Below, one piece after another: positions 16,787 through 32,755 of a DNA stretch of 64,000 nt. Every line of letters begins with the position of its first letter. The stretch's first letter is position 1. The notes under the pieces were generated by a model that did no database searches, was not told the origin of the DNA, and saw only the letters and a list, made by a program, of their open reading frames with translations. Both the position numbers and the translations under genes were made by a program. The stretch comes from SAR92 clade bacterium. Lineage in GTDB: Bacteria; Pseudomonadota; Gammaproteobacteria; Pseudomonadales; Porticoccaceae. The stretch lies in contig SHBP01000002.1 in the NCBI GenBank assembly GCA_004211905.1, positions 1 to 64,000 on the forward strand, given 5' to 3'.

Positions 16787-17560
16787 CTACCTTTCTACAA
16801 AGGCCCGTTCGAGCACATACTCTCCCATATGCCCATTTCGTGCTTCAGAGAATCCCCGATCCTCCAGAATCTTGCACATATCTTTTAGCATGCTTGGACT
16901 GCCACAGAGCATAAAGCGATCGTCTTGTTTATTTGGCAGTGGCATATCTATATCAATAAATAATTTTCCACAGGTCATCATTTCAGTGATACGCCCATTA
17001 TTGTCAAAAGGCTCTCGGGTGACCAGAGGATAGTAAATCAGTTTCTGTTTAACGAACTCTCCAAAATATTCGTGTTCAGGTAGTTCATTTTTTAAGTAAT
17101 CACTGTAGGCTAGCTCTGAGATATAGCGAACACCATGGGTTAAGATTATCTTATCGAATTGCTCATAAATCTCTGGGTCTTTAACAATACTCATAAAAGG
17201 GGCTAGGCCGGTTCCAGTACCTATTAAATAAAGATTTTTCCCAGGTAACATTTGATCAGTGATTAATGTCCCAGTCGGTTTTTTACCAATTAGGATTTTA
17301 TCCCCAGGTTTAAGATGTTGTAATTTAGAAGTTAGTGGTCCATCTTCTACCTTGATGCTAAAAAATTCTAACTCATCTTCATAGTTGGCACTCGCAATAC
17401 TGTATGCGCGCATTAATGGCTTGTTTTCATGTTCAAGTCCGATCATGACAAAGTGCCCATTTTTAAATCTAAAACTAGGGTCTCTTGTAGTTTTAAAGCT
17501 AAATAGGCTGTCATTCCAATGATGAACACTGGTGACGGTCTCAGTAATTAGTTTTGCCAT
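16787..17560 (-). CDS. fpr: Ferredoxin--NADP(+) reductase
   Basis: A cytosolic 257-residue FAD enzyme that moves electrons between NADPH and ferredoxin or flavodoxin. The FAD-binding RAYSIAS motif, the nucleotide-binding GTGTGLAPFMS motif, the CGSP segment and the C-terminal AFVER ending are those of bacterial Fpr. Length is normal. It is convergent with azurin and lies 158 bp downstream of aceE on the same strand. No ferredoxin or flavodoxin gene is next to it. A role as reductant source for the flavin-dependent halogenases is conceivable but not shown. Confidence 0.93.
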   Translation of the reverse strand: MAKLITETVTSVHHWNDSLFSFKTTRDPSFRFKNGHFVMIGLEHENKPLMRAYSIASANYEDELEFFSIKVEDGPLTSKLQHLKPGDKILIGKKPTGTLITDQMLPGKNLYLIGTGTGLAPFMSIVKDPEIYEQFDKIILTHGVRYISELAYSDYLKNELPEHEYFGEFVKQKLIYYPLVTREPFDNNGRITEMMTCGKLFIDIDMPLPNKQDDRFMLCGSPSMLKDMCKILEDRGFSEARNGHMGEYVLERAFVER

Positions 17561-17718: not shown

Positions 17719-20418
17719 TTATATAGTCCAGGGATCTGGCGCGTCTGAGTTGATTTCGAATCGGGCCAGAGCTTCTCTCAGAACAGAAGAATCCATTAAT
17801 TGTAGTCTCACTAAAGATTCAATTGCCGCTAGCGCTATATTATATTTATCGACTTCAAAAAAGCCTCGCAAAACGGCTCGTTGATCACTTCGGCCAAAAC
17901 CATCGGTGCCTAGCGCGATAACACGACCCTCTACATAGGGAGCAATAAGTTGAGGCAGCGCAGCGACATAGTCTGTTGCTGCAATGATTGGCACATCGCC
18001 GGAAAGACATTCCTGCACGTGACTTTTTTTAGGAGTCTCAGATGGATTTAATCGATTTTCTCTTTCAACAGATCTTGCCTGTTTTGCTAGCTCGGTAAAA
18101 CTAGTGACGCTAAAGATATCACTGCTAATATTGAAATGCTCAAATAATATATCTGCCGCAGCGATCACTTCATTAAGGATAGTTCCAGAGCCAATCAGGC
18201 GCACTGCCAATTGATCAGAGCCCTTGCCTCGGTTTTGTATTTTGTGCATACCTTTAATAATATCTTCTTCTACATTTGAAGGCATGTCAGGCTGGACAGT
18301 ATTTTCATTCATTACTGTGATGTAATAAAACTCATCTACATTTAGCTCCATCATTTGCCGCATACCATGGTGCATAATAATGGCAAGTTCGTAAGCATAG
18401 GCTGGGTCATAGGCGCGACAGTTGGGTACGGTCGAAGCAATTAAATGGCTGCTACCATCCTGATGTTGTAATCCTTCTCCTGAGAGTGTCGTTCGTCCGG
18501 CGGTCGCTCCCAGCAAAAAGCCTCGGGCGCGCTGATCAGCGGCAGCCCAAATTAAATCTCCTACACGCTGGAAGCCAAACATTGAATAGTAGATATAAAA
18601 AGGTAAGGTTGGAATATCGTGGATCGCATAGGATGTTGCCGCGGCGGTCCAAGATGAAAGAGCACCAGCCTCATTGATCCCTTCTTCGAGTAGTTGTCCA
18701 TCTTTGACTTCTCTGTAGAACATCATCGATTCAGAGTCTTCTGGTTTGTATAACTGGCCGAGGGGAGCATAAATACCTATTTGACGAAATAGGTTGTCCA
18801 TACCAAAGGTTCTTGCTTCATCTGCGACGATTGGCACAATGCTTGGCCCCAAAGTCTTGTCTTTAAGCAATCCACCAAGCATACGAACGGCAGCCATGGT
18901 GGTGGACATTGATTTGCCTTTGGGCTCCATTGCAAACTTGGCGTATTGACTGATATCTGGAATTAAAGAAGAACCGCTCTTTGTGAGCGAAGCGTCCCTA
19001 AGACTAACTTTTCGAGCGGGCAGGGAGCCCCCCAAGGCCTCACGTTTTCCAATCAAATATGACATCTCGGGACTATCAGGGGCTGGTTTGTAAAAATTTA
19101 GTTCTTCTAAATCACTGTCACTTAAGGGTAGTGAAAAGCGGTCTCTAAAAGCGGTTAACGCATCAATATCCAAACTCTTAGCTTGGTGAGAAGACATTCG
19201 ACTTTCACCAGCGCCCCCCATACCAAAGCCTTTTTTGGTCTTAGCTAAAATAACTGTTGGCTTTCCTTTATGGGCTTTAGCAGCTGCAAAGGCGGCATAC
19301 AGTTTTCGTAAATCATGTCCACCACGCTTTAATTTGTTGATTTCTAAGTCAGTCATGTGGGCAACTAAAGCTTTGGTTGCCGGATCAGTATCAAAGAATT
19401 TAGCGCGGTTATAGTCACCATCTTTTGATCCTAGATCTTGATATTCCCCGTCAACGGTTTGGGCAAATCGACGCAATAGAACTTGATCGGTATCTCTAGC
19501 AAACAAACCATCCCACTCTGAACCCCATAGTACTTTGATAACGTTCCATCCTGCGCCGATAAAAAGACTTTCGAGTTCCTGGATAATTTGACCATTACCT
19601 CTAACTGGGCCATCTAGTCGCTGTAAATTACAGTTAACAATAAAGGTGAGGTTATCTAGCCCTTCTCGAGCCGCAAGTGTAAGTCCGCTAATGGACTCTG
19701 GTTCGTCCATTTCTCCGTCACCAAACACACCCCATACATGGCGATCAGTAGCTTTTGCTAAGCCTCTTCCCTCTAGGTAGCGCATATAACGCGCTTGATA
19801 AACAGCATTTAACGGGCCTAACCCCATAGAACCTGTGGGGAACTGCCAAAAATCGGGCATTAACCATGGGTGGGGGTAGGAAGATAGACCATTGCCCGCA
19901 ACCTCTTGTCGATAGTTAGACAGTTGGTTCTCGTCTAGCCGGCCCTCGAGAAAAGCCCGTGCATAAACTCCTGGTGCAGAGTGGGGTTGGAAATAAACCA
20001 AATCCCCGGCGAAGTCGCTAGTTTTTGCTCGAAAGAAATGATTAAAACCGGTTTCAAAAATTTCAGCTGCTGAGGCGTAACTCGCTATGTGTCCGCCCAG
20101 ACCGCCATAGGCTTTGTTGGCGCGCATGACCATCACCAGTGCATTCCAGCGATTTATAGCTGTAATTCGTTCCTCCAGTTCTAAATTACCTGGATAGGAA
20201 CCCTGTTGCTCTAAAGAGATAGAGTTGCGATAGGCTGAGAAAGGTTGGGCATTCGCAGCCCCTCCTGTATTTCTGATTACTTCTTCTATTTGCCTCAGTA
20301 AAAATTGAGCTCTTTCTGGTCCAGAAATTGAGCTGACAGAAAGCATAGAGTCAATCCACTCTTGAGTTTCAACTGGATCGCTATCGGGGATATCAGTGCC
20401 ATTATTGAACGGCTTCAT
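17719..20418 (-). CDS. aceE: Pyruvate dehydrogenase E1 component, homodimeric type
   Basis: An 899-residue thiamine-diphosphate enzyme that decarboxylates pyruvate and acetylates the lipoyl group of the E2 subunit. The TPP-binding region is visible as GDGEMDEPES followed ~28 residues on by NCNLQRLDGP. The HSAPGVYARAFLEGRL and GFGMGGAGESRM segments are typical of AceE. Length is the family norm of 880-900. No aceF (E2) or lpd (E3) is adjacent, which differs from the usual aceEF operon, so the E2 must be encoded elsewhere or this is an extra copy. Upstream lies a 564-bp divergent intergenic region. Confidence 0.95.
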   Translation of the reverse strand: MKPFNNGTDIPDSDPVETQEWIDSMLSVSSISGPERAQFLLRQIEEVIRNTGGAANAQPFSAYRNSISLEQQGSYPGNLELEERITAINRWNALVMVMRANKAYGGLGGHIASYASAAEIFETGFNHFFRAKTSDFAGDLVYFQPHSAPGVYARAFLEGRLDENQLSNYRQEVAGNGLSSYPHPWLMPDFWQFPTGSMGLGPLNAVYQARYMRYLEGRGLAKATDRHVWGVFGDGEMDEPESISGLTLAAREGLDNLTFIVNCNLQRLDGPVRGNGQIIQELESLFIGAGWNVIKVLWGSEWDGLFARDTDQVLLRRFAQTVDGEYQDLGSKDGDYNRAKFFDTDPATKALVAHMTDLEINKLKRGGHDLRKLYAAFAAAKAHKGKPTVILAKTKKGFGMGGAGESRMSSHQAKSLDIDALTAFRDRFSLPLSDSDLEELNFYKPAPDSPEMSYLIGKREALGGSLPARKVSLRDASLTKSGSSLIPDISQYAKFAMEPKGKSMSTTMAAVRMLGGLLKDKTLGPSIVPIVADEARTFGMDNLFRQIGIYAPLGQLYKPEDSESMMFYREVKDGQLLEEGINEAGALSSWTAAATSYAIHDIPTLPFYIYYSMFGFQRVGDLIWAAADQRARGFLLGATAGRTTLSGEGLQHQDGSSHLIASTVPNCRAYDPAYAYELAIIMHHGMRQMMELNVDEFYYITVMNENTVQPDMPSNVEEDIIKGMHKIQNRGKGSDQLAVRLIGSGTILNEVIAAADILFEHFNISSDIFSVTSFTELAKQARSVERENRLNPSETPKKSHVQECLSGDVPIIAATDYVAALPQLIAPYVEGRVIALGTDGFGRSDQRAVLRGFFEVDKYNIALAAIESLVRLQLMDSSVLREALARFEINSDAPDPWTI

Positions 20419-20982: not shown

Positions 20983-23961
20983 ATGGTATTCAGAAAGAGT
21001 TTACTTTCATCTAGCGTAGCTTTGGCATTAGTAGGAACATACTCACCTGCTTTTGCGCAGGACGATGAAGCGGTAATAGAGGAAATTATTGTTGAGGGTG
21101 GCATTCGTGGAAGTTTGAAAGCCTCTATGGATATCAAGCGAGACTCAATGGGTGTTGTGGATGCGATCTCAGCAGAAGACATTGGTAAATTCCCTGATGC
21201 TAACCTAGCCGAATCTCTCCAGCGAATTACTGGTGTTTCCATCTCTAGGAGCCGTGGTGAAGGCAGCCAAGTAACGGTTCGTGGTTTTGGCCCTGAATAC
21301 AATCTTGTTACCCTTAATGGTCGGCAGATGCCAACCCATAACGGGGCAAGTCGATCTTTTGACTTTGGTGACCTAGCATCTGAAGGCGTCGCTGGAGTTC
21401 AGGTCTACAAGACAGGTCGCGCTGATGTGCCATCCGGTGGTGTTGGTTCAACTATTAATATTTCGACCCCTAAGCCTCTTGAGGCAGATTCTGTGGGTAG
21501 TATTTCCGTCAAGGCTGTAAATGATACCTCCAGACGAGGGGACGATGATGGTCACCTAGGACAACTTACTCCTGAGTTCTCTGGTATTTACATGGATACC
21601 TTTGCCGAGGGAAGCATTGGTATTGCAGTAATAGCCAGTCAGCAAGAGCGAGAAAATGGTGTTAATGCAGCGAGCGTTGGAGGTTACTACACTCGAACCG
21701 GCGATGGTGCAGATCAAAAATTAGCTAATAATGACGCTCAAGTTAATCGCCCAACTACAGCAGATGCAAATTATTCTTTGCCTCAGTCCATGGCCTATAA
21801 CATTGCAGAATATCGCAGTAAGAGAACCAACGGACAGGTTGTGATCCAAATGGCGCCATCAGATTCAGTCACCATGACGTTGGATTATATTCAGTCTGAA
21901 ATGGACCTTGAACGATCTTATAGCGATCTCTCGGCATGGTTTTCAAACACCGCGGCGGTCTCTCAAAGTAGTGAATGGACAGACGGCCCAATTGCAGCTC
22001 CTCTTTACTACCAAGAAACAGTTGATAATAACGACTTTGCCATGGGTACTGGTGAAGATGGACGCAAAAACAAGAATAAATCGTTGGGCTTGAACTTTGA
22101 TTGGCAGGTTAATGATGAGTTGGTGCTTAACTTTGATTGGCATGATTCATCTGCAGAGACTGGTGCAAACAGCCCTAATGGAACCAGTTCATTGATTACA
22201 ATGGCAAGCTTCAATAAGGTTGGTCAAACCTTTATTACAGGGTATGACATGCCAGTTATGTTGCTGGATTTGAATTCTGGCGGTGAAACTAATCGACCAC
22301 TGTATAAGAATGATATGATTATCACGGGTAGTGCGTTCAGAAATGATGCTGCCTTGATGAACATTGAGCAGACTAAATTTAGCGGGACTTGGGATTTCTC
22401 TGATGAGTCAAGCATCGACTTTGGTGTCCAGCTTTCCGATGTTGATAACAAAGCTGTATCTAACTTTGTTCAGTTAAACAATTGGGGTGGAAGTACCAAC
22501 CCAGGAGACTTGGCAGACATTGTTATTCGTTCAAGTGTCGAAGGCCAATTTGATCAGTTGTCAGGACATGATTATGAGGGTATTCAGACTGAATACATGA
22601 CTGCTTCATTAGACGATCTAATCGCTGCGGGTGAGGCTTCCTACATAGCCAGCGGCGCTGATTATGAAGCTATAGGTGATTGTGGTACTGGCTATTGTGC
22701 ATCCACTGAATGGTCTGGCAACAATGTTTCTGGCTACAGTAATATTTTCACTCTGGAAGAGTCCATTGCAGCCTATATTCGATATAACTTGAATACTGAA
22801 GTTGCAGGAATGCCAGTTAATGTTCACATGGGTCTTCGTTATGAAGAAACCGACATTACCTCTCAAGCGGTGACGTCAGAGTATGAAGGAACTTCTTGGG
22901 CCAAAGCGGGTAACGAAGCTTATTTAGTGCCAAAGGTTGGAGGCGGTGAACCCACTGCTTACTTAGGCAACTATGATATGGTTCTTCCCAGCTTTGATTT
23001 CGATATTGAAATTGTTGAGGACGTAGTTCTACGAGCTTCTTTTAGTGAGACTATTACTCGCCCAAGTTATAATGATATTAAGGGTGGTCTAACTGCCAAT
23101 AGCACTCAGTTCTATGCTAATCAAAATGCGTTTGCATCCTCTGGTAACCCTGATTTAGAGCCAATTTTGTCTCGCAATATCGATTTGTCAGCAGAGTGGT
23201 ACTACGGTGAGGGAAGTTACCTGTCTGTTGGTTACTTCGATAAAGACGTTGATAAGTTCATTGGTTCAGGTATTGCTGAGCGCTCATTGGGCGCAATCCC
23301 TAATATCATCGGCGGTACCCTTTGGAATCAGGCAGTCGCTGAAAGTGGTCTTGATCCTAATCAATATACTGTCGTTGCACAGTACATTTTAGATAATTAC
23401 CAAGACAGTCCTTATGTTGATGGAGATACGATTACTGGCGCGCCAGGCGATCCCGACTTGATATGGACTGTGACCCAGCCTGTCAACCAGAAGAAAGCGA
23501 GGGTTGATGGAATTGAGATCAATTTGCAGCATTTCTTTGGTGAGTCAGGTTATGGCTTTATTGCTAACGCAACCTTTGCAGATGCTGATGTTGGCTATGA
23601 CAACATGAGATTTGATGAGGGACAGTTTGTTCTCAACGGATTAAGCGACTCAGCTAACTTGGTTGGTGTTTATGACAAAGATGGGTTGTCTGTTCGTTTA
23701 GCCTATAACTGGCGTGATGATTTTCTAGCGGGCGCTGGCCAGGGGCAGGGTACTAACACTAACCCAACAAACGTTGAGGCTTATGGTCAGTTGGATCTAG
23801 GTATTACCTATGAATACAATGATAGGCTGACTATTTATGCATCGGGTCTAAATATCACTGATGAGACAGTTCGTGTCTATGGCAAGACTAAAGATCTCGT
23901 ATTGCAAGCCGTTCAAGGTGGCCCAAGATATGATCTAGCCATACGTTACAAGCTATTTTAG
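20983..23961 (+). CDS. TonB-dependent outer-membrane receptor (large, carbohydrate/organic-ligand type)
   Basis: A 992-residue outer-membrane receptor that imports a ligand using TonB energy. The signal peptide ends at AFA (26). A TonB-box-like EEIIVEGG (32-39) is followed by a plug domain with DAISAEDIGKFPDANLAESL and ITGVSISRSRGEGSQVTVRG. A long beta-barrel ends in the terminal aromatic motif YKLF. The plug sequence is the type found in large receptors of Caulobacter/Xanthomonas/Alteromonas polysaccharide loci rather than in siderophore receptors. It heads a same-strand series with halogenase and SapC genes, an arrangement seen beside such receptors, and is closed by a hairpin terminator. 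Its ligand cannot be read from the sequence. Confidence 0.93.
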   Translation: MVFRKSLLSSSVALALVGTYSPAFAQDDEAVIEEIIVEGGIRGSLKASMDIKRDSMGVVDAISAEDIGKFPDANLAESLQRITGVSISRSRGEGSQVTVRGFGPEYNLVTLNGRQMPTHNGASRSFDFGDLASEGVAGVQVYKTGRADVPSGGVGSTINISTPKPLEADSVGSISVKAVNDTSRRGDDDGHLGQLTPEFSGIYMDTFAEGSIGIAVIASQQERENGVNAASVGGYYTRTGDGADQKLANNDAQVNRPTTADANYSLPQSMAYNIAEYRSKRTNGQVVIQMAPSDSVTMTLDYIQSEMDLERSYSDLSAWFSNTAAVSQSSEWTDGPIAAPLYYQETVDNNDFAMGTGEDGRKNKNKSLGLNFDWQVNDELVLNFDWHDSSAETGANSPNGTSSLITMASFNKVGQTFITGYDMPVMLLDLNSGGETNRPLYKNDMIITGSAFRNDAALMNIEQTKFSGTWDFSDESSIDFGVQLSDVDNKAVSNFVQLNNWGGSTNPGDLADIVIRSSVEGQFDQLSGHDYEGIQTEYMTASLDDLIAAGEASYIASGADYEAIGDCGTGYCASTEWSGNNVSGYSNIFTLEESIAAYIRYNLNTEVAGMPVNVHMGLRYEETDITSQAVTSEYEGTSWAKAGNEAYLVPKVGGGEPTAYLGNYDMVLPSFDFDIEIVEDVVLRASFSETITRPSYNDIKGGLTANSTQFYANQNAFASSGNPDLEPILSRNIDLSAEWYYGEGSYLSVGYFDKDVDKFIGSGIAERSLGAIPNIIGGTLWNQAVAESGLDPNQYTVVAQYILDNYQDSPYVDGDTITGAPGDPDLIWTVTQPVNQKKARVDGIEINLQHFFGESGYGFIANATFADADVGYDNMRFDEGQFVLNGLSDSANLVGVYDKDGLSVRLAYNWRDDFLAGAGQGQGTNTNPTNVEAYGQLDLGITYEYNDRLTIYASGLNITDETVRVYGKTKDLVLQAVQGGPRYDLAIRYKLF

Positions 23962-23993
23962 ATTTCATTAGTTATTAACTCAGTACCTATGAG

Positions 23994-24024
23994 GCCGCTC
24001 TATTTTTGAGCGGCTTCTTTGGTT
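23994..24024 (+). terminator. Rho-independent terminator after the TonB receptor
   Basis: GCCGCTC pairs perfectly with GAGCGGC across a TATTTTT loop, followed by a T-rich tail (TTCTTTGGTTTT). It lies 32 nt after the receptor stop, so the halogenase genes behind it probably have their own promoter or depend on read-through. Confidence 0.8.
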
Positions 24025-24147
24025 TTGACGTATATCAAAGCTGGAGAGAAAATAATATTAGGATATTCGGTTAGTATTATTCTTAACTGAGCTAATAAGC
24101 GATAATGTCGCTTATACTGAAATGCTGTGAATGGGTTATTGCGCTTT

Positions 24148-25731
24148 ATGACATCAAGTGAAAATTTAAAAAGTATCGTGATTGTTGGTGGAGGCACTGC
24201 TGGTTGGTTGACGGCGGGTATTATTGCCGCAGAGCATAGTTCTAATGGTTCTGAATCCGATGGGTTGATCGATATAAAAGTAACTTTGGTCGAGTCGCCA
24301 GACATCAGCACTATTGGTGTGGGTGAGGGCACTTGGCCGTCCATGCGTTCTACGCTTCAAAAAATGGGTATTTCTGAGACAGACCTAATTAGAGGCTGCG
24401 ATGCGAGTTTCAAACAGGGTACGCTATTTAAGAGTTGGAAAACCGGTGGCAGCGATGCGTATACGCATCCGTTTACTCCTCCCCACTCCTACGCTTCAAC
24501 TAATCTTGCTCCTCAATGGCAGAAGTTCAGTAATGAAGTCTCCTTTGCTGAAGCAGTTTCATCACAAAATGCCTTGATGTTTAAAGGCTTGGCGCCAAAA
24601 CAAATTTCTACGCCTGAATATGCATTTCATACTAATTATGGATATCATCTGGATGCGGGAAAATTTGCCGAGCTCCTCAGAAAACATTGTGTTGACAAGC
24701 TTGGGGTTACCCATTTAAAAGCAAATGTCGTTTCTGTTAATTCCTCAGCCGATGGAGATATTGCGTCCTTAAAGACTGATTCTCATGGTGATATCAGCGG
24801 CGATCTTTTTGTGGATTGCAGCGGCTCTAGAGCTCTGCTGTTGGGGGAGCATTTTGGTGTGCCGTTTTGTTCAAAAGGTCAGTTTCTATTTAACGATACC
24901 GCATTGGCCTCTCAAATTCCCTATGTCAATGCTGATGATCCTATTGCTTCGAGTACTTTATCAACTGCTCAGACCGCTGGATGGATATGGGATATTGGGT
25001 TACCCACGAGGAGAGGTATTGGACACGTTTATTCTAGCGGCCATACTACTGAAGATCGTGCTGCTCAAGAATTATTAGCGTATATTGCGGCCATCGTTAG
25101 TCCTGAGGCGGCAGCATCCGCATCGATTAGGAAAGTCCCCTTCAGTCCAGGACATCGCGCTAAATTTTGGCATAAAAACTGTGTTGCAGTTGGTATGTCT
25201 GCTGGATTTATAGAACCGTTAGAAGCCTCCGCACTAGTATTGGTAGAGCTCTCAGCTGCCATGATTGCTGAGCAATTACCGGCCAATCGACAGATAATGG
25301 ATGTAGTGGCAAAACGCTTTAATGACAAATTCCTCTATCGCTGGGACCGGATAATCGACTTTTTGAAGCTCCATTATATTCTCTCTCAACGACAGGATAG
25401 TGATTATTGGAAAGACAATATTTCCTCATCTAGCGTTCCTGATAATCTATCTGAACTTGTAAAGTTGTGGCGATGGCAAGCGCCCTGGCACAGAGATACT
25501 GGACATATTGATGAAATGTTTCCATCGGCAAGTTATCAATATGTGCTATACGGGATGGGATTTTTGACCCAGGATAGTACGACTGCGAGGCGATCAGATC
25601 GGGAAGCGCAATCTGTTGCAGAAGGACTTTTCCGTGAAAATGCTGAGAGAACCAAAAAGCTATTGGCTTCAATGCCAACGAACAGAGAATTAATCGAAAA
25701 AATCACCAATTACGGTTTACAAAAAATATAA
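24148..25731 (+). CDS. Tryptophan-halogenase-family flavin-dependent protein (first copy)
   Basis: This belongs to the PrnA-type FAD-dependent halogenase family, which uses reduced flavin, oxygen and halide to halogenate an electron-rich substrate. The FAD motif VGGGTAGW starts at residue 13. Lys89 in DASFKQG sits at the catalytic lysine position. The EPLEASA segment covers the conserved Glu. The WxWxIP signature appears as WIWDIGLP, a variant with Gly before the Leu-Pro. The ATG at 24148 puts the FAD motif at the usual distance from the N-terminus. A GTG at 24127 is also in frame, and neither start has a strong ribosome site. The natural substrate of copies beside TonB receptors is generally unknown. 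Halogenase chemistry is inferred from family membership. No flavin reductase gene is adjacent. Confidence 0.88.
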   Translation: MTSSENLKSIVIVGGGTAGWLTAGIIAAEHSSNGSESDGLIDIKVTLVESPDISTIGVGEGTWPSMRSTLQKMGISETDLIRGCDASFKQGTLFKSWKTGGSDAYTHPFTPPHSYASTNLAPQWQKFSNEVSFAEAVSSQNALMFKGLAPKQISTPEYAFHTNYGYHLDAGKFAELLRKHCVDKLGVTHLKANVVSVNSSADGDIASLKTDSHGDISGDLFVDCSGSRALLLGEHFGVPFCSKGQFLFNDTALASQIPYVNADDPIASSTLSTAQTAGWIWDIGLPTRRGIGHVYSSGHTTEDRAAQELLAYIAAIVSPEAAASASIRKVPFSPGHRAKFWHKNCVAVGMSAGFIEPLEASALVLVELSAAMIAEQLPANRQIMDVVAKRFNDKFLYRWDRIIDFLKLHYILSQRQDSDYWKDNISSSSVPDNLSELVKLWRWQAPWHRDTGHIDEMFPSASYQYVLYGMGFLTQDSTTARRSDREAQSVAEGLFRENAERTKKLLASMPTNRELIEKITNYGLQKI

Positions 25732-25771
25732 ACTGTGAAGAATCAATAATAATGTGTTGTTTGGAGAAGCT

Positions 25772-26494
25772 ATGAGTAATTACGTCTTGTTAGGTACAAA
25801 CGCCCACAAAGACTTAAAAGTGATCACTGCCAGATCAAAGAATTATGGTGATAATGTTATGCACGCTATGACGTTTCCCATGGAGTTTCGTGATGTGCAG
25901 TCAAGTTATCCAATCTTTTTCTGTAAAGACCCAGAGTCTGGACAGTTTTATCCAACCGCTCTTTTTGGACTTGAGCAGGACCAAAATTTGTTTCTGACGG
26001 AAGACGGATGGGATGCAGCCTATATACCTATGATGATTAGACGACATCCGTTTCTGATTGGTTATCAAGCTGATTCTGAACATGAAGATGGTAAGAGACC
26101 CGTCGTATCTATTGATATGGACAATCCAAGAATCAGTGAGAGTGAGGGCGAACCACTTTTTACTGAGAGTGATGAACCCACTGATTATCTGAAGGCATCC
26201 ATCAGTGTTCTAGAATCGATTCACCGAGGGCATGAGCACAACAAAGGGTTTATTGAGACATTGTTAGAGCTCCAACTTCTGGAAGCATTTACCTTGGAGG
26301 TAACTTTGAATGATGGTTCAAATAATCAGCTGTCGGGGTTCTATACTATTGCAGAGCAAAACCTCCACCAGTTAGACGGAGATACCTTTGATATGCTTAA
26401 TAAGAAGGGGTACTTACAGGCCATCTTTATGGCCGTTGCCTCTCATTCACGACTCAGGCCTCTCATTGAAAAGAAAAATGCATTATTGAAGTAA
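25772..26494 (+). CDS. SapC family protein
   Basis: A 240-residue SapC-family protein of unknown biochemical role. The N-terminal MSNYVLLGTNAHKDLKV, the HAMTFPMEFRDVQSSYPIFF segment and the C-terminal ASHSRLRPLI ending match this family, often found next to TonB receptors and tryptophan-halogenase-like genes. There is no signal peptide, so it should be cytoplasmic. The ATG at 25772 is chosen because a GGAGAAG ribosome site lies just upstream; an in-frame GTG at 25754 lacks one. It is placed between two halogenase genes, 40 bp after the first. Confidence 0.85.
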   Translation: MSNYVLLGTNAHKDLKVITARSKNYGDNVMHAMTFPMEFRDVQSSYPIFFCKDPESGQFYPTALFGLEQDQNLFLTEDGWDAAYIPMMIRRHPFLIGYQADSEHEDGKRPVVSIDMDNPRISESEGEPLFTESDEPTDYLKASISVLESIHRGHEHNKGFIETLLELQLLEAFTLEVTLNDGSNNQLSGFYTIAEQNLHQLDGDTFDMLNKKGYLQAIFMAVASHSRLRPLIEKKNALLK

Positions 26495-26586
26495 TTGTTG
26501 ATGTACTAGTCAGTGTATAGATCATTAGTTTTATGGTCGTTAATTAATGAATTCAGGGTGCGGACGTTTTGATTGGAGATGTTAAT

Positions 26587-28074
26587 TTGGCTCAGCAAAA
26601 AATTAAAAAGGTCATTATTGTTGGCGGTGGCACTGCAGGGTGGATGGCGGCTGCCTCGCTTTCTAAGCTGATTGGCAGGGATCTAGATATATCGTTGATC
26701 GAGTCTGATCAGATTGGCACGGTTGGTGTTGGAGAAGCGACTATTCCCACCTTTTTTGCCCTTCATCAATTATTAAAGATAAACGAGGCAGAGTTTCTCT
26801 CTGAAGTCCAAGGTACTATTAAGCTGGGAATCTCATTTGAGAATTGGAAAAACAATGGTGAAGACTACATTCACGCTTTTGGTTATACCGGTCAATCCTG
26901 TTGGGCCGCTGGATTTCAACATTTTTGGCTGAAAGGAAAAACCTTAGGAATTAGTGAGGAATATAGTTGTTACTCGCCTGAACTAATGGCTGCTAAAGCG
27001 AATAAGTTTGGCTTACTAAAACAGAATGCACTGAATTATGCCTATCACATTGACGCTAGCTTGTACGCCAAGTTTTTACGCCGGTTAGCTGAGAAAAATA
27101 ATGTAACACGAATAGAAGGCAAGATTATTACGGTCAATCAAGCTGATGATGGAAATATCAAAAGTGTACAGTTGGAATCTGGGCTAACTATTGATGGCGA
27201 CTTATTTATAGATTGCTCTGGGTTCGCTGCTCTATTGATTGACAAAACTTTGGGTACAGAATATGAAGACTGGTCCCATTGGCTTCCGTGTGACCGCGCG
27301 GTTGCTGTGCAGACTAAATCTGTATCCCCACCTATTCCTTATACTCGGTCAATTGCCAGAGAATGTGGTTGGCAGTGGCGTATTCCTTTGCAGTCTAGAG
27401 TAGGAAATGGGCTAGTGTTTAGTAGCGAGCATATGAGCGAGGATGAAGCGACGAGCACCTTGCTTAATAATGTCGAAGGGGAAACTCTGACTACCCCGCG
27501 AGTAATTAAATTTCGTACCGGACAAAGAACTGTTCAGTGGAACAAAAATTGCGTTGCTCTGGGGCTTTCTGGAGGATTTTTAGAGCCTTTAGAGTCTACT
27601 AGTATTCATCTTATTCAGCGCGGCATTATTCGACTCATGCAGATGTTCCCTCTGTCAGGAATCACAGAGGCAGACCGTGATGAATTTAACCGCCAAATGA
27701 GCGATGAATATAACTTCATTCGCGACTTTATTATCATGCATTATCATGTGACTGAGCGAACTGATACAGAATTTTGGCGACAGTGTAAAAACATGGATAT
27801 TCCTGATTCACTGGATCATCGCCTCAGATTATTTAAGGACTCTGGTAGGGTCTTTCAGGGAGAGGGCGACGTATTCGGAGAGAATAGTTGGACTCAGGTT
27901 ATGCTAGGACAAGGTTTAATGCCTGAGCAGTATCATCCTATTGTTAACATGATGAGCGACAATGAGCTAGAACGTTTTTTGAAAGGCAATAGAGCCTCGG
28001 TAGACAATACTTTAAAGCAATTGCCTACACATCAGCAGTTTATTGCTCAGTATTGTCCTGCAAAGCCAATTTAA
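26587..28074 (+). CDS. Tryptophan-halogenase-family flavin-dependent protein (second copy)
   Basis: A second PrnA-type protein with complete signatures: FAD motif VGGGTAGW near residue 13, Lys in GTIKLGISFENW at the catalytic lysine position, canonical WQWRIP, and FLEPLESTSI containing the conserved Glu/Ser. The start is uncertain. TTG at 26587 has GGAG 8 nt upstream and is preferred; TTG at 26569 would add six residues. It resembles the first copy only moderately, so the two are old paralogues rather than a recent duplication. The DUF2237 gene follows 16 nt later, suggesting co-transcription. Substrate unknown. Confidence 0.88.
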   Translation: MAQQKIKKVIIVGGGTAGWMAAASLSKLIGRDLDISLIESDQIGTVGVGEATIPTFFALHQLLKINEAEFLSEVQGTIKLGISFENWKNNGEDYIHAFGYTGQSCWAAGFQHFWLKGKTLGISEEYSCYSPELMAAKANKFGLLKQNALNYAYHIDASLYAKFLRRLAEKNNVTRIEGKIITVNQADDGNIKSVQLESGLTIDGDLFIDCSGFAALLIDKTLGTEYEDWSHWLPCDRAVAVQTKSVSPPIPYTRSIARECGWQWRIPLQSRVGNGLVFSSEHMSEDEATSTLLNNVEGETLTTPRVIKFRTGQRTVQWNKNCVALGLSGGFLEPLESTSIHLIQRGIIRLMQMFPLSGITEADRDEFNRQMSDEYNFIRDFIIMHYHVTERTDTEFWRQCKNMDIPDSLDHRLRLFKDSGRVFQGEGDVFGENSWTQVMLGQGLMPEQYHPIVNMMSDNELERFLKGNRASVDNTLKQLPTHQQFIAQYCPAKPI

Positions 28075-28090
28075 GTTTTTGGAGAGTTAT

Positions 28091-28459
28091 GTGAGTCAAA
28101 CTAACGTATTTGGTGAGCCTATTGATGAATGTTGCAGTCATCCAATGACAGGCTATTTTCGCGACGGATTTTGTCGCACCAGTAAGTATGACATGGGCTC
28201 CCATACAGTGTGTGCTTTGATTACTGATGCTTTTTTAGTTTTTTCTCAGTCTCGCGGAAATGATTTATCAACACCAAAACCCGAGTTTGAATTCCCCGGT
28301 CTTGCGGAAGGTCAATCTTGGTGTCTGTGCGCTGCTCGCTGGCTTGAGGCTCATGAAGCCGGATGCGCACCCAAAGTGCATTTGAAAAGAACAAATATTG
28401 AAGCTTTAAAAATTGTTCCTATGGATATATTGCGTGGTTATGCAACTGACCTAAATTAA
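28091..28459 (+). CDS. DUF2237 family protein
   Basis: A 122-residue small soluble protein of the DUF2237 family, function unknown. Family hallmarks are visible: NVFGEPIDECC, PMTGYFRDGFC, a GSHTVCALIT core, SRGNDLSTPKPEFEFPGL and the WCLCAARW stretch with its cysteines. The GTG at 28091 is chosen because GGAG lies 6 nt upstream and the family motif begins right after it. It is tucked between the second halogenase and the methyltransferase with gaps of 16 and 21 nt, so it is probably translated from the same mRNA. Confidence 0.85.
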   Translation: MSQTNVFGEPIDECCSHPMTGYFRDGFCRTSKYDMGSHTVCALITDAFLVFSQSRGNDLSTPKPEFEFPGLAEGQSWCLCAARWLEAHEAGCAPKVHLKRTNIEALKIVPMDILRGYATDLN

Positions 28460-28480
28460 TTCCGCTACAACAGGAGATCA

Positions 28481-29104
28481 ATGATGAGTTTTTACGACAA
28501 ATATATTTTACCAAGCTTTTTGAATTGTGCCTGTGGATCAAAACCGATCAACTACCAACGTGAGAAAGTCGTACCTCAAGCACAGGGTGTTATTTTAGAA
28601 GTAGGTATAGGATCTGGCTTAAATATTCCTTTTTATGATAGAACAAAGGTGGAAAAAATCATTGGTCTGGATCCTTCTCCTGAGCTTAATGCTATGGCAC
28701 AAAAAGTGGCTGATGAGCATGCATTAAACATTGACTTTATTCTGAGTGGTGCTGAGGACATACCTCTGCCGGACAACTATGTGGATTCAGTGCTAGTCAC
28801 TTACACTATGTGCACGATTCCTGATGCACTTACAGCTAACAAAGAAATGCTCAGAGTCTTAAAACCCGATGGAAGATTGATTTTTTGTGAGCACGGCTTG
28901 GCTCCTGATGCCAAGGTATCGAAATGGCAGGGCCGAATTGATCCTTTTTGGGGAAAGATTGCTGGAGGCTGCCATCTAAATCGTAATATTCCTGAACTAA
29001 TCCGTTCCGCAGGATTCCAGATCCAGACAATGGACGAGATGTACTTGCCTAGCACACCAAAATTTGCAGGCTATAACTACTGGGGCGTAGCCTCTGCAAG
29101 TTAA
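28481..29104 (+). CDS. Class I SAM-dependent methyltransferase
   Basis: A 207-residue methyltransferase. Motif I is LEVGIGSGLN (about 39-48), the acidic residue ending strand 2 is in GLDPSPEL, and motif IV-like TYTMCTIPD and post-motif LRVLKPDGRLIFCEHG are present. This pattern is closest to the UbiE/METTL7-like group. AGGAG at 28472 serves either ATG 28481 or ATG 28484. It is the last gene of the halogenase cluster. A substrate shared with the halogenases is possible but only inferred from position. Confidence 0.85.
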   Translation: MMSFYDKYILPSFLNCACGSKPINYQREKVVPQAQGVILEVGIGSGLNIPFYDRTKVEKIIGLDPSPELNAMAQKVADEHALNIDFILSGAEDIPLPDNYVDSVLVTYTMCTIPDALTANKEMLRVLKPDGRLIFCEHGLAPDAKVSKWQGRIDPFWGKIAGGCHLNRNIPELIRSAGFQIQTMDEMYLPSTPKFAGYNYWGVASAS

Positions 29105-29187: not shown

Positions 29188-30123
29188 CTACAACTTAAAA
29201 TGAACCTCAGTTGCGATCAGTGCATCGCCACATTGATTACAGCGTACCTCAGGATTTAAATGCTCACCACAGGGTTCATGTTTGAGTAAAATAGGATTGC
29301 CATTACCTTTGGAGCACCACTTGTCGCCCCATGACAGTAGAGATACGAAATAGGGAAATAGGTCTCGACCTTTGTCAGTAAGGTGGTATTCATAACGCAA
29401 CGGACTTTGTTGATAAGGTAGTCGATAAAACACACCTTCATTGATTAGTAGTTTTAATCGGTCTGTAAGAATATTTGTCGCTATTGGGAGCTCCTGGTGG
29501 AAATCATCAAAACGGTTCAAGCCATGGAAAGCCAAAGCGATAACGTTAGCAGTCCAACGGTCACCGAGTAAATTAATCAAATTTCTGTACAGAGTTTTAC
29601 CTTGATCTTCGGATGAGGCGCTGGAAGATGACCGTCTCCGAGTCTTGGTTATGCGTGTATCTTTCGTGGCCCCAGGCCCGGGATGAAAGCTAACATCGTC
29701 GGAGCTTACCGGTTGATTACAGTGGCCGCACTCCATTACTGGCCAAAAGGCTTTGGCGCAGGTCTTGTGAGTTAACTCTACGGAGTCAAGAGTGGGGGTG
29801 GCGAAATACTTGCGCTCCCAGACCATTGCCATCAATCCATTAGAATAAAGTTCAATGGATTTTTTCGTCAGATGATAGGTAGGGCGTCTAGGTCCATTTT
29901 CCACCTCTTCTTTGCGTAGACAATCCTTAGTCTGTAACCAGTTAAGTCTATCACTGAGAACTCCGCGAGAAGCACCTGTTCCGGCTAACATCCCATTAAA
30001 AGTATTAACCCCCCAGAAAACTTCTTGAAGAATTAACAGACACCATTTATCACCAATTTCATCTAGTGCACGATTAATTGAACTCGCTCTTGTGCTGAGT
30101 GTATGTTTCTGAAAAACGCTCAT
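29188..30123 (-). CDS. Tandem HxlR-type transcriptional regulator with two zinc-ribbon-like tails
   Basis: A 311-residue DNA-binding regulator made of two HxlR winged-helix domains, whereas ordinary HxlR proteins have one domain of ~110-150 residues. Domain 1 (about 15-110) has IGDKWCLLILQEVFWG and the wing region PTYHLTKK. Domain 2 (about 170-275) has LLGDRWTANVIALAFHG and YEYHLTDKG. Each is followed by a cysteine/histidine knuckle: CGHCNQPVS after domain 1, and CGEHLNPEVRCNQCGDAL at the C-terminus. It lies 36 bp downstream of the carotenoid-oxygenase gene on the same strand and is the likely local regulator of that gene and of the divergent CoA operon. Confidence 0.85.
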   Translation of the reverse strand: MSVFQKHTLSTRASSINRALDEIGDKWCLLILQEVFWGVNTFNGMLAGTGASRGVLSDRLNWLQTKDCLRKEEVENGPRRPTYHLTKKSIELYSNGLMAMVWERKYFATPTLDSVELTHKTCAKAFWPVMECGHCNQPVSSDDVSFHPGPGATKDTRITKTRRRSSSSASSEDQGKTLYRNLINLLGDRWTANVIALAFHGLNRFDDFHQELPIATNILTDRLKLLINEGVFYRLPYQQSPLRYEYHLTDKGRDLFPYFVSLLSWGDKWCSKGNGNPILLKHEPCGEHLNPEVRCNQCGDALIATEVHFKL

Positions 30124-30159
30124 TGAATAGTATTTTCCTATGGCACCATCTGAAATGGA

Positions 30160-31665
30160 TTACTTCCAAAGGTCCTCTCCGCGACTCCACCAGGCATGAA
30201 AGCCAGTAGGTACACGGTGAGGTATTTTGACGCGAGCAATAGGTCCTTGAGTAATATCTTGGGCATTAAAAATCTGTAGTTCAGATTTCCAAGTATTACT
30301 ATCAGTGACAAGAGACATTACATAGCCGTGGTCTTCCTCACTTTCGCGGTTCGCACCTTTGACAGGAGCAAAAGGAGTTTCACTTCCATAAACACCATCG
30401 CCATAGTCCCATTGAACAGATTGACCGGTTTCATTGTTGTATTTAACCAGGCCATTAAAGCGCAGAGTGTAACCTCCTTCTTCTAGTAGCGGAATTCGCT
30501 GATGATAAGCATATTTAGATTTTACACCATGATAGATTTGGTTGATTTTATTAAACTCAGTATTTAGGTCGTCAATATCTCCCTCTCGCACCTCACCGGT
30601 GACTAAATTAAAGCGCCAACGATAATTGTTGGCTTCCAAGCGCATGTAGGCAAGCATATGAGATAGGGCGCCTTCCTCATTTGTGGCATCCGGCATTGGA
30701 TTAGTTGATCGGCACCCATCCATTGTTATCCAGTCACCTTCTTCCCAACAATTAGATACGTGCAGAATAAAACAGGGCTCACAATCGAACCAGCGAATAT
30801 CTGTACCATGACCATAGCGAGGAATTACGCCAAAACGAGACGGCATGTCACGATGAAAATTCAAGACGCGCATATTATGGTTACGCAGTACATTCATATC
30901 ATGGAAGAATGGAAGGTCATGGAGAATGGTGTAATTTGTCGTGAATCCCAAATCATGGGGTAAGCGCGGCCCAGGTAGTTCTATATCCACCTCATGACGT
31001 AAGGTCCCATCTGGGTTGGCAACTCCATAGGTCATAAATGGGACTTCATCACCATAATCCATGAAAATTAACTCACCGGATTTCCAGTCAATGTGACTGT
31101 GGGCTGACATATTGCGTCGAGTACGCCCCTTAACATCGAAAACCCCCTGATTTTCCAGAGTTAGTGGATTCATTTGGTAGGGGATACCCGCGTTGTACCA
31201 CGTTGGTATCAAGCTACCATTAAACATAACCACGTCGGTGTTGCCCGTATCTTTGATCGGAAAATCAGGCAATGAAAAGTCAAACGGACCCATTACCCCG
31301 GGCCATATAGCCTCACGTTGGCTAAGCTCATACTGAAGGGCGGCAGTGTGGATGTAGCTATTACGATAAGATGCTTTACCATCACGTATGTACACAGCGT
31401 GCACCATGCCATCTCCGTCAAATGGGTGGTATGAATTTTTCGGCTTGAATACAGGGTTCGGCCCATTGCGGTAATAAGCCCCAAATAAATCATCAGGGAG
31501 TTCCCCAATCACTTCTAATTCATTGACTACGATCTCATCCGAGGTCGGCGCATAGGCACCATGAAGGTAGGGGTTATCTAACTCATAGATCCAATTCTGT
31601 GTATTATCAAACTGCGGAGCAGATCCAATACATTTTTCAGTAATTTCAAAAAAATTCGCACCCAT
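30160..31665 (-). CDS. Carotenoid/stilbene-cleaving oxygenase (RPE65/CCD family)
   Basis: A non-haem iron dioxygenase of ~501 residues that cleaves a C=C bond in a carotenoid, apocarotenoid or stilbene-like substrate. The four iron-binding histidines of the family can be placed (numbering from the upstream GTG): His192 in SAHSHID, His240 in LPHDLG, His305 in FILHVSNCWEEGD and His493 in GFHAWW. The ATG at 31665 is preferred because AAGGTGG lies 5 nt upstream; the GTG at 31674 is in frame. No signal peptide. It is divergent from the nitronate monooxygenase/CoA-ligase operon and shares a strand with the tandem HxlR regulator. Whether the substrate is a carotenoid or an aromatic stilbene cannot be told. 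Confidence 0.9.
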   Translation of the reverse strand: MGANFFEITEKCIGSAPQFDNTQNWIYELDNPYLHGAYAPTSDEIVVNELEVIGELPDDLFGAYYRNGPNPVFKPKNSYHPFDGDGMVHAVYIRDGKASYRNSYIHTAALQYELSQREAIWPGVMGPFDFSLPDFPIKDTGNTDVVMFNGSLIPTWYNAGIPYQMNPLTLENQGVFDVKGRTRRNMSAHSHIDWKSGELIFMDYGDEVPFMTYGVANPDGTLRHEVDIELPGPRLPHDLGFTTNYTILHDLPFFHDMNVLRNHNMRVLNFHRDMPSRFGVIPRYGHGTDIRWFDCEPCFILHVSNCWEEGDWITMDGCRSTNPMPDATNEEGALSHMLAYMRLEANNYRWRFNLVTGEVREGDIDDLNTEFNKINQIYHGVKSKYAYHQRIPLLEEGGYTLRFNGLVKYNNETGQSVQWDYGDGVYGSETPFAPVKGANRESEEDHGYVMSLVTDSNTWKSELQIFNAQDITQGPIARVKIPHRVPTGFHAWWSRGEDLWK

Positions 31666-31849
31666 AGTGTCCACCTTACTAGCCTTTTATGAAACTATGC
31701 CTCATTATGGTCTATTTATGCAAGTATCTTGGGTGTTTTCATGATTACGTAATCTAGGTCATTTGCCAGTAGGCGAGCAGTTGGTTAATATTTTACTGAT
31801 TAATGGTCTAATTATAAAAGTAATGAATTTGTTAGAAGGATAGCCACAG

Positions 31850-32755
31850 ATGTCAGACAATAACATTTGTTTACCCGTAATCCAGGCGCCAATGTTCTTG
31901 TTGTCCGGCCCCGATATGGTAATTGCCAGCTGTAGGGCTGGAATCGTTGGATCCTTTCCTTCTCCTAATGCTCGCACTACTGATATTCTTAATCAGTGGC
32001 TTGAAAGGATTACAACTGAGCTATCAGAGACTCCCCGCGCGGCACCCTGGGCTTTAAATTTGGTCATGCACCGATCTAATCCCAGGCGACATGACGACCT
32101 AGAGCTTGCTATTAAATACCGCGCGCCCATCGTTATCACTGCATTGGGAAGTCCGGTAGAAGCTGTCGAGAGTGTGCATGCTTATGGCGGTAAGGTGTAT
32201 GCTGATGTAACAACGATTGATTTTGCTCGACGGGCAGCGGTATCTGGCGTAGATGGATTGGCATTAGTCTGTTGTGGTGCCGGTGGACATACAGGGTTAT
32301 TGTCACCCTTTGCCTTTGTTGATGAGGTCAGGCAATTTTTTGACGGTGAGATTATTTTGTCTGGGGCAATCAGCAATGGTCGAGCAATTCGCGCTGCTGA
32401 GGTTCTCGGGGCAGATTATGTTTATATGGGAACTAGGTTTATACCTACTAAAGAGTCGCTTGCCCAAGATGAATACAAAGAAATGGTGGTAGAGGCCAGC
32501 GGCGCTGACATAGTGACCTCAGATTCAATTACTGGTGTTAAGGCTAATTGGCTTAAAGGAAGTCTGGAGAAGGGGGGCTTTGATATTGATAATATGCCGC
32601 CGCCTGGTCCAATAAATTTTCTAGAGGCAGCCAGCGATGCGAAGCGTTGGCGAGATATATGGGCCGCGGGCCAAGGTGTGGGTTCAATCGATAGGAAACA
32701 ATCTATTGCTGAGGTAGTGGAGCAGTTAACTGAAGAATATAGGTCCTGTTTATGA
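31850..32755 (+). CDS. Nitronate monooxygenase / 2-nitropropane dioxygenase-like flavoprotein
   Basis: A 301-residue FMN TIM-barrel protein. The start motif PVIQAPM, GSFPSPNAR, the ALVCCGAGGHTG segment with the conserved His, and the phosphate-binding LSGAISNGRAIRAAEVLGADYVYMGTRF are those of the NMO/NPD family. Members oxidise nitronates, but many are misnamed and act on other substrates. It is the first gene of a four-gene operon, and its stop overlaps the acyl-CoA ligase start by 4 nt (ATGA). That context suggests a step in breaking down an organic acid rather than nitroalkane detoxification. Confidence 0.85.
   Translation: MSDNNICLPVIQAPMFLLSGPDMVIASCRAGIVGSFPSPNARTTDILNQWLERITTELSETPRAAPWALNLVMHRSNPRRHDDLELAIKYRAPIVITALGSPVEAVESVHAYGGKVYADVTTIDFARRAAVSGVDGLALVCCGAGGHTGLLSPFAFVDEVRQFFDGEIILSGAISNGRAIRAAEVLGADYVYMGTRFIPTKESLAQDEYKEMVVEASGADIVTSDSITGVKANWLKGSLEKGGFDIDNMPPPGPINFLEAASDAKRWRDIWAAGQGVGSIDRKQSIAEVVEQLTEEYRSCL

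Follow-up and report, generated by a model that had tools for sequence, protein, structure and literature searches.

A TonB-dependent receptor with a recurring halogenase and SapC gene cassette in a SAR92 clade bacterium

Genes at the locus

The window analysed here is a 64,000-nucleotide stretch from a SAR92 clade bacterium (Porticoccaceae, Gammaproteobacteria; assembly GCA_004211905.1, contig SHBP01000002.1, positions 1 to 64,000 of the forward strand), and it forms the start of the contig referred to below as C12 in a genome of 2.28 Mb that is 91% complete. We focused on six genes that encode a TonB-dependent receptor (TBDR), two proteins of the flavin-dependent halogenase (FDH) family with a SapC family protein between them (FDH1, SapC and FDH2), a DUF2237 protein and a class I S-adenosylmethionine (SAM) methyltransferase (Table 1). 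A first-pass annotation, made from the sequence alone, had described six same-strand genes with gaps of 16 and 21 nt among the last three; all six were found on the plus strand with the same boundaries, and both gap lengths are correct. For FDH2 the TTG start at 26587 is likelier than 26569: it is preceded by GGAG, and the resulting protein is as long as those of its relatives. The plug and barrel domains of the receptor (PF07715 and PF00593) were both recognised, and TBDR folds topped the PDB search with its AlphaFold2 model.

The cassette in related genomes

The first four genes of the locus are a member of a conserved cassette, in a variant without Cupin_8 (PF13621). An FDH2-alignment scan of GTDB species genomes gave at least 592 stretches, at least 590 of which were confirmed, and the best 80 loci were kept (loci are given L numbers and genomes G numbers). 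Members were counted by six-frame profile search; longest-frame gene calling missed genes in G+C-rich loci. The 80 loci span alpha-, beta- and gammaproteobacteria, and the usual order is TBDR, FDH1, SapC, Cupin_8 (about 337 aa) and FDH2. TBDRs occur at 67 of the loci, SapC at 64, Cupin_8 at 67 and DUF6445 at 11; among the 58 loci uncut by a contig end, these counts are 57, 50, 52 and 7, respectively. The enzyme genes follow one another closely, with median gaps of 14-25 nt, and the exact order FDH-SapC-Cupin_8-FDH follows 48 of the 90 receptors scoring above 800 bits in the stretches read, the rest adding, dropping or reordering members. The closest named relative at the locus among the best 80 (L106) also belongs to the Porticoccaceae, and its FDH2 is 87% identical to that of the window. 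A neighbourhood search of the kind proposed in the first-pass annotation thus bears out its receptor-linked part, as SapC and a halogenase recur widely beside a TBDR.

Two further comparisons point in the same direction. Across 55 canonical sets, the ten pairwise distance correlations between cassette proteins ranged from 0.73 to 0.87, and for none of them did any of 999 permutations give a value as high; the cassette proteins co-diverge. In a sample of 61 genomes from the family, in which a strong FDH was defined as a PF04820 match of at least 130 bits (12 of the 32 genomes with any PF04820 match were dropped as weak), 19 of the 20 genomes that had a strong FDH also had SapC, vs 5 of the 41 others.

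The composition of individual cassettes varies. Teredinibacter waterburyi (L152) carries tandem cassettes, TBDR-FDH-SapC-Cupin_8-FDH followed by TBDR-SapC-Cupin_8-FDH, and a second Cupin_8 gene in the opposite direction lies just downstream of FDH2 in L072, L078, L087, L052, L054, L107, L109 and L114. DUF6445 is an extra cassette member in L074, L084, L126, L128, L132, L135, L140 and L173, among others, and a sequence search for a solved relative of DUF6445 at E values up to 0.1 found none.

Table 1. Positions of the genes and features of the locus and its glycan context in the window
Feature	Position	Strand	Remarks
TonB-dependent receptor (TBDR)	20983-23961	+	TIGR01782 618.6 bits (cut-off 310); linked-clade member
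Terminator-like hairpin, receptor/enzyme gap	23991-24017	+	10 pairs, 7 G-C, T-rich tail
FDH1, flavin-dependent halogenase family	24127-25731	+	PF04820 382 bits (cut-off 21); alternative start ATG 24148
SapC family protein	25772-26494	+	PF07277 233 bits (cut-off 28.9)
FDH2, flavin-dependent halogenase family	26587-28074	+	PF04820 621 bits (cut-off 21); open frame from 26569
DUF2237	28091 (GTG)-28459	+	PF09996 173 bits (cut-off 25); neighbour, judged outside cassette
Class I SAM methyltransferase	28481-29104	+	PF08241 71 bits; neighbour, judged outside cassette
Ig-like/CBM6 protein	1468-6045	+	Glycan context
GH3 glycosidase with Ig-like and CBM6 domains	6170-9385	+	Glycan context
Probable GH5-CBM6 protein, C-terminal part, cut by contig start	2-1201	+	

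One receptor clade accompanies the enzymes

We next compared the cassette receptors with other receptors of the TIGR01782 family, of which 77 matches were found in 18 of 30 genomes. Control regions (40 regions from 14 genomes, with 42 receptors) served for comparison, and the cassette receptors of G072, G199, G203 and G227 lie outside the tree. Structure predictions used all 65 listed SapC and all 63 listed receptor sequences, plus those of the window. The tree of 133 receptors contains one 90-member clade (support 1.0), which comprises 88 of the 91 enzyme-adjacent receptors together with two control-region receptors, those of L209 and L211; the other 40 control-region receptors fall outside it. 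Each of these 40 controls used as root returned the same 90-member clade, whereas an arbitrary root placed controls inside it with support 0.34. On this tree, the control receptors are a different receptor set from the cassette-linked ones. The window receptor shares TIGR01782 membership, by score, with the 40 others but differs from them in belonging to a sub-clade tied to FDH, SapC and Cupin_8. Three enzyme-adjacent receptors lie outside the clade (L055, L073 and the second receptor of L171). The stretches of L209 and L211 have their clade receptors beside a GH3-like gene, L211 also beside a GH30-like gene.

The genome itself holds only two receptors above the TIGR01782 cut-off, that of the window and one on contig C2, which belongs to the same clade and is followed by the only Cupin_8 gene found. 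Over the two loci, the tally is two clade receptors, one SapC, one Cupin_8 and two FDHs.

A hairpin separates receptor and enzyme genes

The first-pass annotation had also noted a terminator after the receptor gene, and a terminator-like hairpin does stand there. A hairpin scan gave 9 sites vs 6.2 in shuffles, and a single site alone proves little. However, terminator-like sites occur in 49 of 66 TBDR-FDH gaps (median gap 130 nt), the window hairpin counting among these conserved sites, and a shuffle control set 48 of 64 observed gaps against 0.2 of 64 in single-base shuffles. We infer that the hairpin may be a device for making much receptor and little enzyme.

Glycan genes surround the locus

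One end of contig C2 (L092) carries a 249-aa frame with a GH5 match. G024 encodes a GH5-CBM6 protein of 1754 aa, to whose residues 14-244 this frame is 79% identical and to whose residues 1357-1752 the start of the window is 66% identical. Because their ends match one protein, contigs C2 and C12 probably adjoin, and the two ends are probably one broken gene. Joined in this way, GH30, AraC-type regulator, GH3, second receptor, Cupin_8 and GH5-CBM6 genes would lie upstream of the Ig-like/CBM6 and GH3 genes of the window. In the flanks of the cassettes of relatives, for which 98 of 187 listed proteins were scanned and 89 omitted, we found 19 LacI, 9 GH16, 7 SSF and 6 MFS_2 matches, and regulators, sugar transporters and glycosidases dominate among the top 25 of 75 families. 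Judged from the neighbour genes alone, beta-glucan is the likely ligand class at the window locus. Similar genes reportedly occur in Xanthomonas N-acetylglucosamine loci. Other cassettes adjoin other genes, for example that of a sulfatase.

Two probably active flavin enzymes

The catalytic lysine and glutamate of PrnA, K79 and E346, have counterparts in both halogenase-family proteins. In FDH1, aligned to 2pyx, K89 and E359 are each kept in 54 of the 54 relatives with a letter at that position; in FDH2, aligned to 6y1w, K85 is kept in 55 of 55 and E342 in 54 of 54. Since these residues are kept, FDH1 and FDH2 are probably active flavin enzymes. W-x-W-x-I-P is the hallmark motif of the flavin-dependent tryptophan-halogenase family, and FDH2 fits it with WQWRIP, whereas FDH1 reads WIWDIG, its last residue being Gly rather than Pro (Gly in 51 of 54 relatives), so that the FDH1 group has W-x-W-x-I-G instead. 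The closest solved structure of FDH1 is 2pyx, of the tryptophan halogenase family, which it matches over its whole length (625 bits). That of FDH2 is Xcc4156 (6y1w; near full length, 637 bits), and FDH2 also aligns with BrvH (6frl) over nearly its full length (454 bits); the catalytic Lys/Glu positions are kept in both comparisons.

PMC7336383 describes BrvH and three Xanthomonas halogenases as enzymes of unknown native substrate, proposes a peptide substrate for BrvH with an extension to Xcc4156, and includes 2pyx as an unnamed halogenase; a functional study of 2pyx was not found in the open-licence literature, judged by title and abstract. According to PMC5945002, BrvH lacks the residues that hold the amino acid moiety of tryptophan, and it brominates free indole, slowly, but not tryptophan. 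This slow bromination would fit a reading in which a free small aromatic (indole, a tryptophan derivative or an algal aromatic) is the substrate of the halogenases and the product is a signal or defence compound, with only a regulatory link to the receptor. We regard this as the less probable course, though one to be taken seriously, given that the recurring partners are TBDR, SapC and Cupin_8 with no recognisable biosynthetic genes, that the scanned flanking proteins are mainly those of sugar use and regulation described above, and that the enzymes co-diverge with the receptor.

A gene set joining a halogenase with SapC and TonB genes was not found in the literature searched, a weak absence given that only open-licence papers were covered. 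The words TonB and SapC are absent from the texts of PMC5945002 and PMC7336383, and neither occurs in that of PMC8269204; the text of PMC3400609 mentions neither halogenase nor SapC, and that of PMC1790865 has none of halogenase, SapC, tryptophan and cupin. Literature matches to "SapC" were set aside as unrelated (SapCa-2 is a clay, and another SapC is a peptide permease). Two further papers concern different gene sets: one on phage and Colwellia halogenase transcripts, which speculates on redox modulation of virus-host receptors, and one on the bromoalterochromide cluster.

SapC and the absent Cupin_8

The predicted structure of SapC is confident (mean pLDDT 97, pTM 0.90). A Foldseek search of the model against the PDB gave no match with E <0.001, and realignment of the 998 best Foldseek chains gave none with Z >=2. 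For this model, then, a solved relative was not found, and a new fold is not implied.

Cupin_8 usually lies between SapC and FDH2 in relatives and is missing from the window, where the gap between these two genes (92 nt) is too short to hold it. The only copy found in the genome is at 1249-1971 of contig C2, beside the second clade receptor; G043 likewise has no Cupin_8 between SapC and FDH2. The candidate metal triad H157-x-D159...H241 (L081 numbering) is kept in all 55 of 55 cassette copies. With the C2 copy as query, the nearest solved relatives are FIH and JMJD5 (phmmer E 2.5e-22 and 3.4e-16 over the JmjC core), a likeness that concerns the Cupin_8 of the cassette, a gene absent from the window itself. 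FIH and JMJD5 are protein hydroxylases.

A receptor tryptophan tracks the clade

Given the protein hydroxylases nearest to Cupin_8, the peptide substrate proposed for BrvH and Xcc4156 in PMC7336383, and the one receptor clade that is the main partner of the enzymes, the cassette might halogenate and hydroxylate the receptor or its precursor, for example at Trp319. The secondary structure of the AlphaFold2 model places this tryptophan at the tip of an extracellular loop, and it is found in 83 of 87 FDH-adjacent receptors vs 2 of 40 controls; Trp639 stands out in the same way. However, Trp319 is also kept in all 6 of 6 FDH-less clade receptors (4 with Cupin_8, 2 with no enzyme), including that of L095 from G013, a genome without an FDH match, and it is missing from the FDH-adjacent receptors of L055, L073, L127 and L171. 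Both tryptophans track the receptor clade and not the presence of FDH, and we rejected them as a sign of halogenation. Stacking against sugars would account equally well for an extracellular aromatic residue, and this is the simpler role for Trp319. That the receptor is modified in this way therefore seems doubtful.

The DUF2237 and methyltransferase genes are a separable pair

The first-pass annotation had proposed a single pathway for all six genes, in which halogenation of an imported ligand is followed by methylation and DUF2237 contributes another step. Of this proposal, the recurring receptor-linked halogenase set with kept catalytic residues stands, and the further steps do not, as the DUF2237-methyltransferase pair recurs in only 2 of the 80 loci (L106 and L107, both Porticoccaceae). 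The annotation had tied its pathway to finding the pair beside the halogenases in other genomes as well, and such genomes do exist: the order FDH2-DUF2237-methyltransferase is common to G024 and L106, the pair lies upstream of the receptor in L107 and G055, and the methyltransferase alone stands after FDH2 in G052 and before the receptor in G043. Six same-strand genes with short gaps would also suit one pathway, as would the co-occurrence of DUF2237 with a strong FDH, which in the 61 family genomes is more frequent than expected at random (12 of 20 vs 8 of 41 genomes, p 0.003, phylogeny uncorrected).

Linkage across the family speaks otherwise. A strong FDH and DUF2237 are each present in 20 of 61 genomes and both in 12, yet DUF2237 directly adjoins FDH in only 2 of these 12 (G000 and G024) and lies about 5 kb away in G055. 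We found the methyltransferase in 37 of 61 genomes; of the 13 that also have a strong FDH, only 5 carry the two genes no more than 6 kb apart. DUF2237 and methyltransferase are adjacent in 8 of 20 DUF2237 loci; two of these pairs adjoin FDH2, one is about 5 kb off, and the remaining five have no halogenase close by or are placed on a different contig. In a class sample of 185 genomes, DUF2237 was found in 37, a strong FDH in 8 and both in 2, adjacent in the genome of the window only.

A deletion in one relative further separates the pair from the cassette. The match of G058 to G052 runs until shortly before FDH2 ends, where the G058 sequence continues with the region that precedes the receptor in G052. 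It has thus lost the receptor, FDH1, SapC, Cupin_8 and most of FDH2, of which a remnant (aa 445-499) is left; no FDH, SapC or Cupin_8 was found in the G058 genome. Its methyltransferase frame is whole and 88% identical to that of the window, and a DUF2237 remnant (aa 98-122) is present both in G058 and in G052, which keeps the cassette. The junction relative to G052 lies at 7431-7792 of L091 (G058), with the FDH2 and DUF2237 remnants between the methyltransferase and AceE. The ancestor of G052 and G058 would thus have had the pair beside FDH2, DUF2237 decaying while the cassette stayed, and the methyltransferase appears to have survived cassette loss in G058. Because the pair is rare at the loci, mostly unlinked in the family and parted from the cassette by the G058 deletion, we judge DUF2237 and the methyltransferase to be a separate pair beside the cassette without a step in it, and the single pathway to be very improbable.

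The pair may instead be a light- or phototrophy-related unit that lies here by synteny. The window protein matches the solved DUF2237 protein 4ioh at E 8.1e-43 (2lq3 and 3ush are further solved members), and PMC5932025 links the family to phototrophy and not to halogenation, reporting enrichment of DUF2237 with rhodopsin and photosystem genes and reduced phototaxis in a Synechocystis knockout. After three rhodopsin matches under the cut-off were dropped, we counted rhodopsin in 15 of 20 DUF2237 genomes vs 8 of 41 others of the family sample (Fisher p 4.8e-5, phylogeny uncorrected), and G052 has a rhodopsin gene about 7 kb upstream of its receptor. On the other hand, no rhodopsin was found in the window's own, 91% complete genome, G052 itself is without an intact DUF2237, the methyltransferase is without any tie to light, and DUF2237 correlates with FDH too, so phylogeny may drive both associations. 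We put the chances of a phototrophy-related unit at about even. Genes of lycopene cyclase, beta-carotene dioxygenase and an FMN-dependent dehydrogenase-family protein lie directly before the receptor in L077 (G052).

Other genes near the locus have their own associations. Genes of a double HxlR regulator and an RPE65-type oxygenase lie downstream of the methyltransferase on the opposite strand. Together with genes of a nitronate monooxygenase, an AMP-binding enzyme and two thiolases, they make up a block (29188-36871) that keeps its gene order in several relatives and is separate from the cassette. Upstream, an AceE-like protein (17719-20418) scores above the cut-offs of both aceE and TIGR03186 (an NCBIfam exception model, alpha-ketoglutarate dehydrogenase). 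A flavin reductase-like gene (16787-17560) was considered as an FDH partner and rejected, because it stays beside AceE in the cassette-less G058 and is not tied to the cassette.

Interpretation and significance

We consider it probable that the locus consists of a glycan-uptake receptor gene with a standing enzyme cassette, followed by an independent DUF2237-methyltransferase pair. The receptor would import a glycan, probably a beta-glucan oligosaccharide as suggested by the GH3, GH5, GH30 and CBM6 genes, and the hairpin after its gene would let part of transcription pass, giving the enzymes in small, catalytic amounts. FDH1 and FDH2, with FADH2, O2 and halide, may then halogenate or oxidise an aromatic group in the cytosol, with SapC as a putative non-enzymatic partner and the JmjC-like Cupin_8 as a candidate hydroxylase. 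The chemistry is probably cytosolic because, by eye, no export signal was seen at the N-termini of the cassette proteins except the receptor. As the mix-and-match oxidative enzymes have a single receptor clade as their constant companion, the substrate is probably tied to the receptor, be it the receptor polypeptide itself, a peptide or a ligand that carries an aromatic group, and not a free secondary metabolite. Oxidative modification tied to the receptor is the interpretation we favour.

Several observations weigh against it. Some concern sampling: the 80 loci were picked with an FDH2 query, so their frequencies are valid for close FDH2 relatives only; the control regions were chosen for having no FDH, SapC or Cupin_8 nearby; and at least three further full-length receptors with no known enzymes close by, those of G047:C2, G009:C30 and G024:C20, were left out of the comparison, as was G001:C68 as a control. 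The distance correlations, moreover, partly reflect shared organism phylogeny. Others concern the genes themselves. An FDH lies near a non-clade receptor in L055 and L073, FDH-less variants exist (TBDR-SapC-Cupin_8 in L094, L095 and L097; TBDR-Cupin_8 in L092), and no FDH, SapC or Cupin_8 is present in the stretches of L209 and L211, so halogenation is not needed for every clade receptor. As for the hairpin, terminator-like sites were found in 0 of 69 SapC-Cupin, 0 of 68 Cupin-FDH and 0 of 63 FDH-SapC gaps, which are mostly too short, and such a site follows 16 of 41 control receptors vs 62 of 90 high-scoring ones.

A stricter form of receptor-tied oxidative modification would make FDH1, FDH2, SapC and Cupin_8 a dedicated post-translational modification system for one glycan-receptor clade, with SapC holding the unfolded receptor while its residues, such as Trp319, are halogenated with bromide from sea water and hydroxylated before export. 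We think this unlikely, slightly more so than receptor modification in the broader sense. If true, however, it would explain the natural role of many environmental "tryptophan halogenases", among which those of the Xcc4156/BrvH group are frequent in environmental proteobacteria and have been studied as biocatalysts.

More generally, a cassette defined by a receptor clade, SapC, Cupin_8, two halogenases and a hairpin names partners to test, and DUF2237 and the methyltransferase would drop off the list of suspects. SapC stands out as a small protein whose fold is predicted with confidence and for which no solved relative was found. Together, these findings may shift the question of what such halogenases do from secondary metabolism to glycan uptake.

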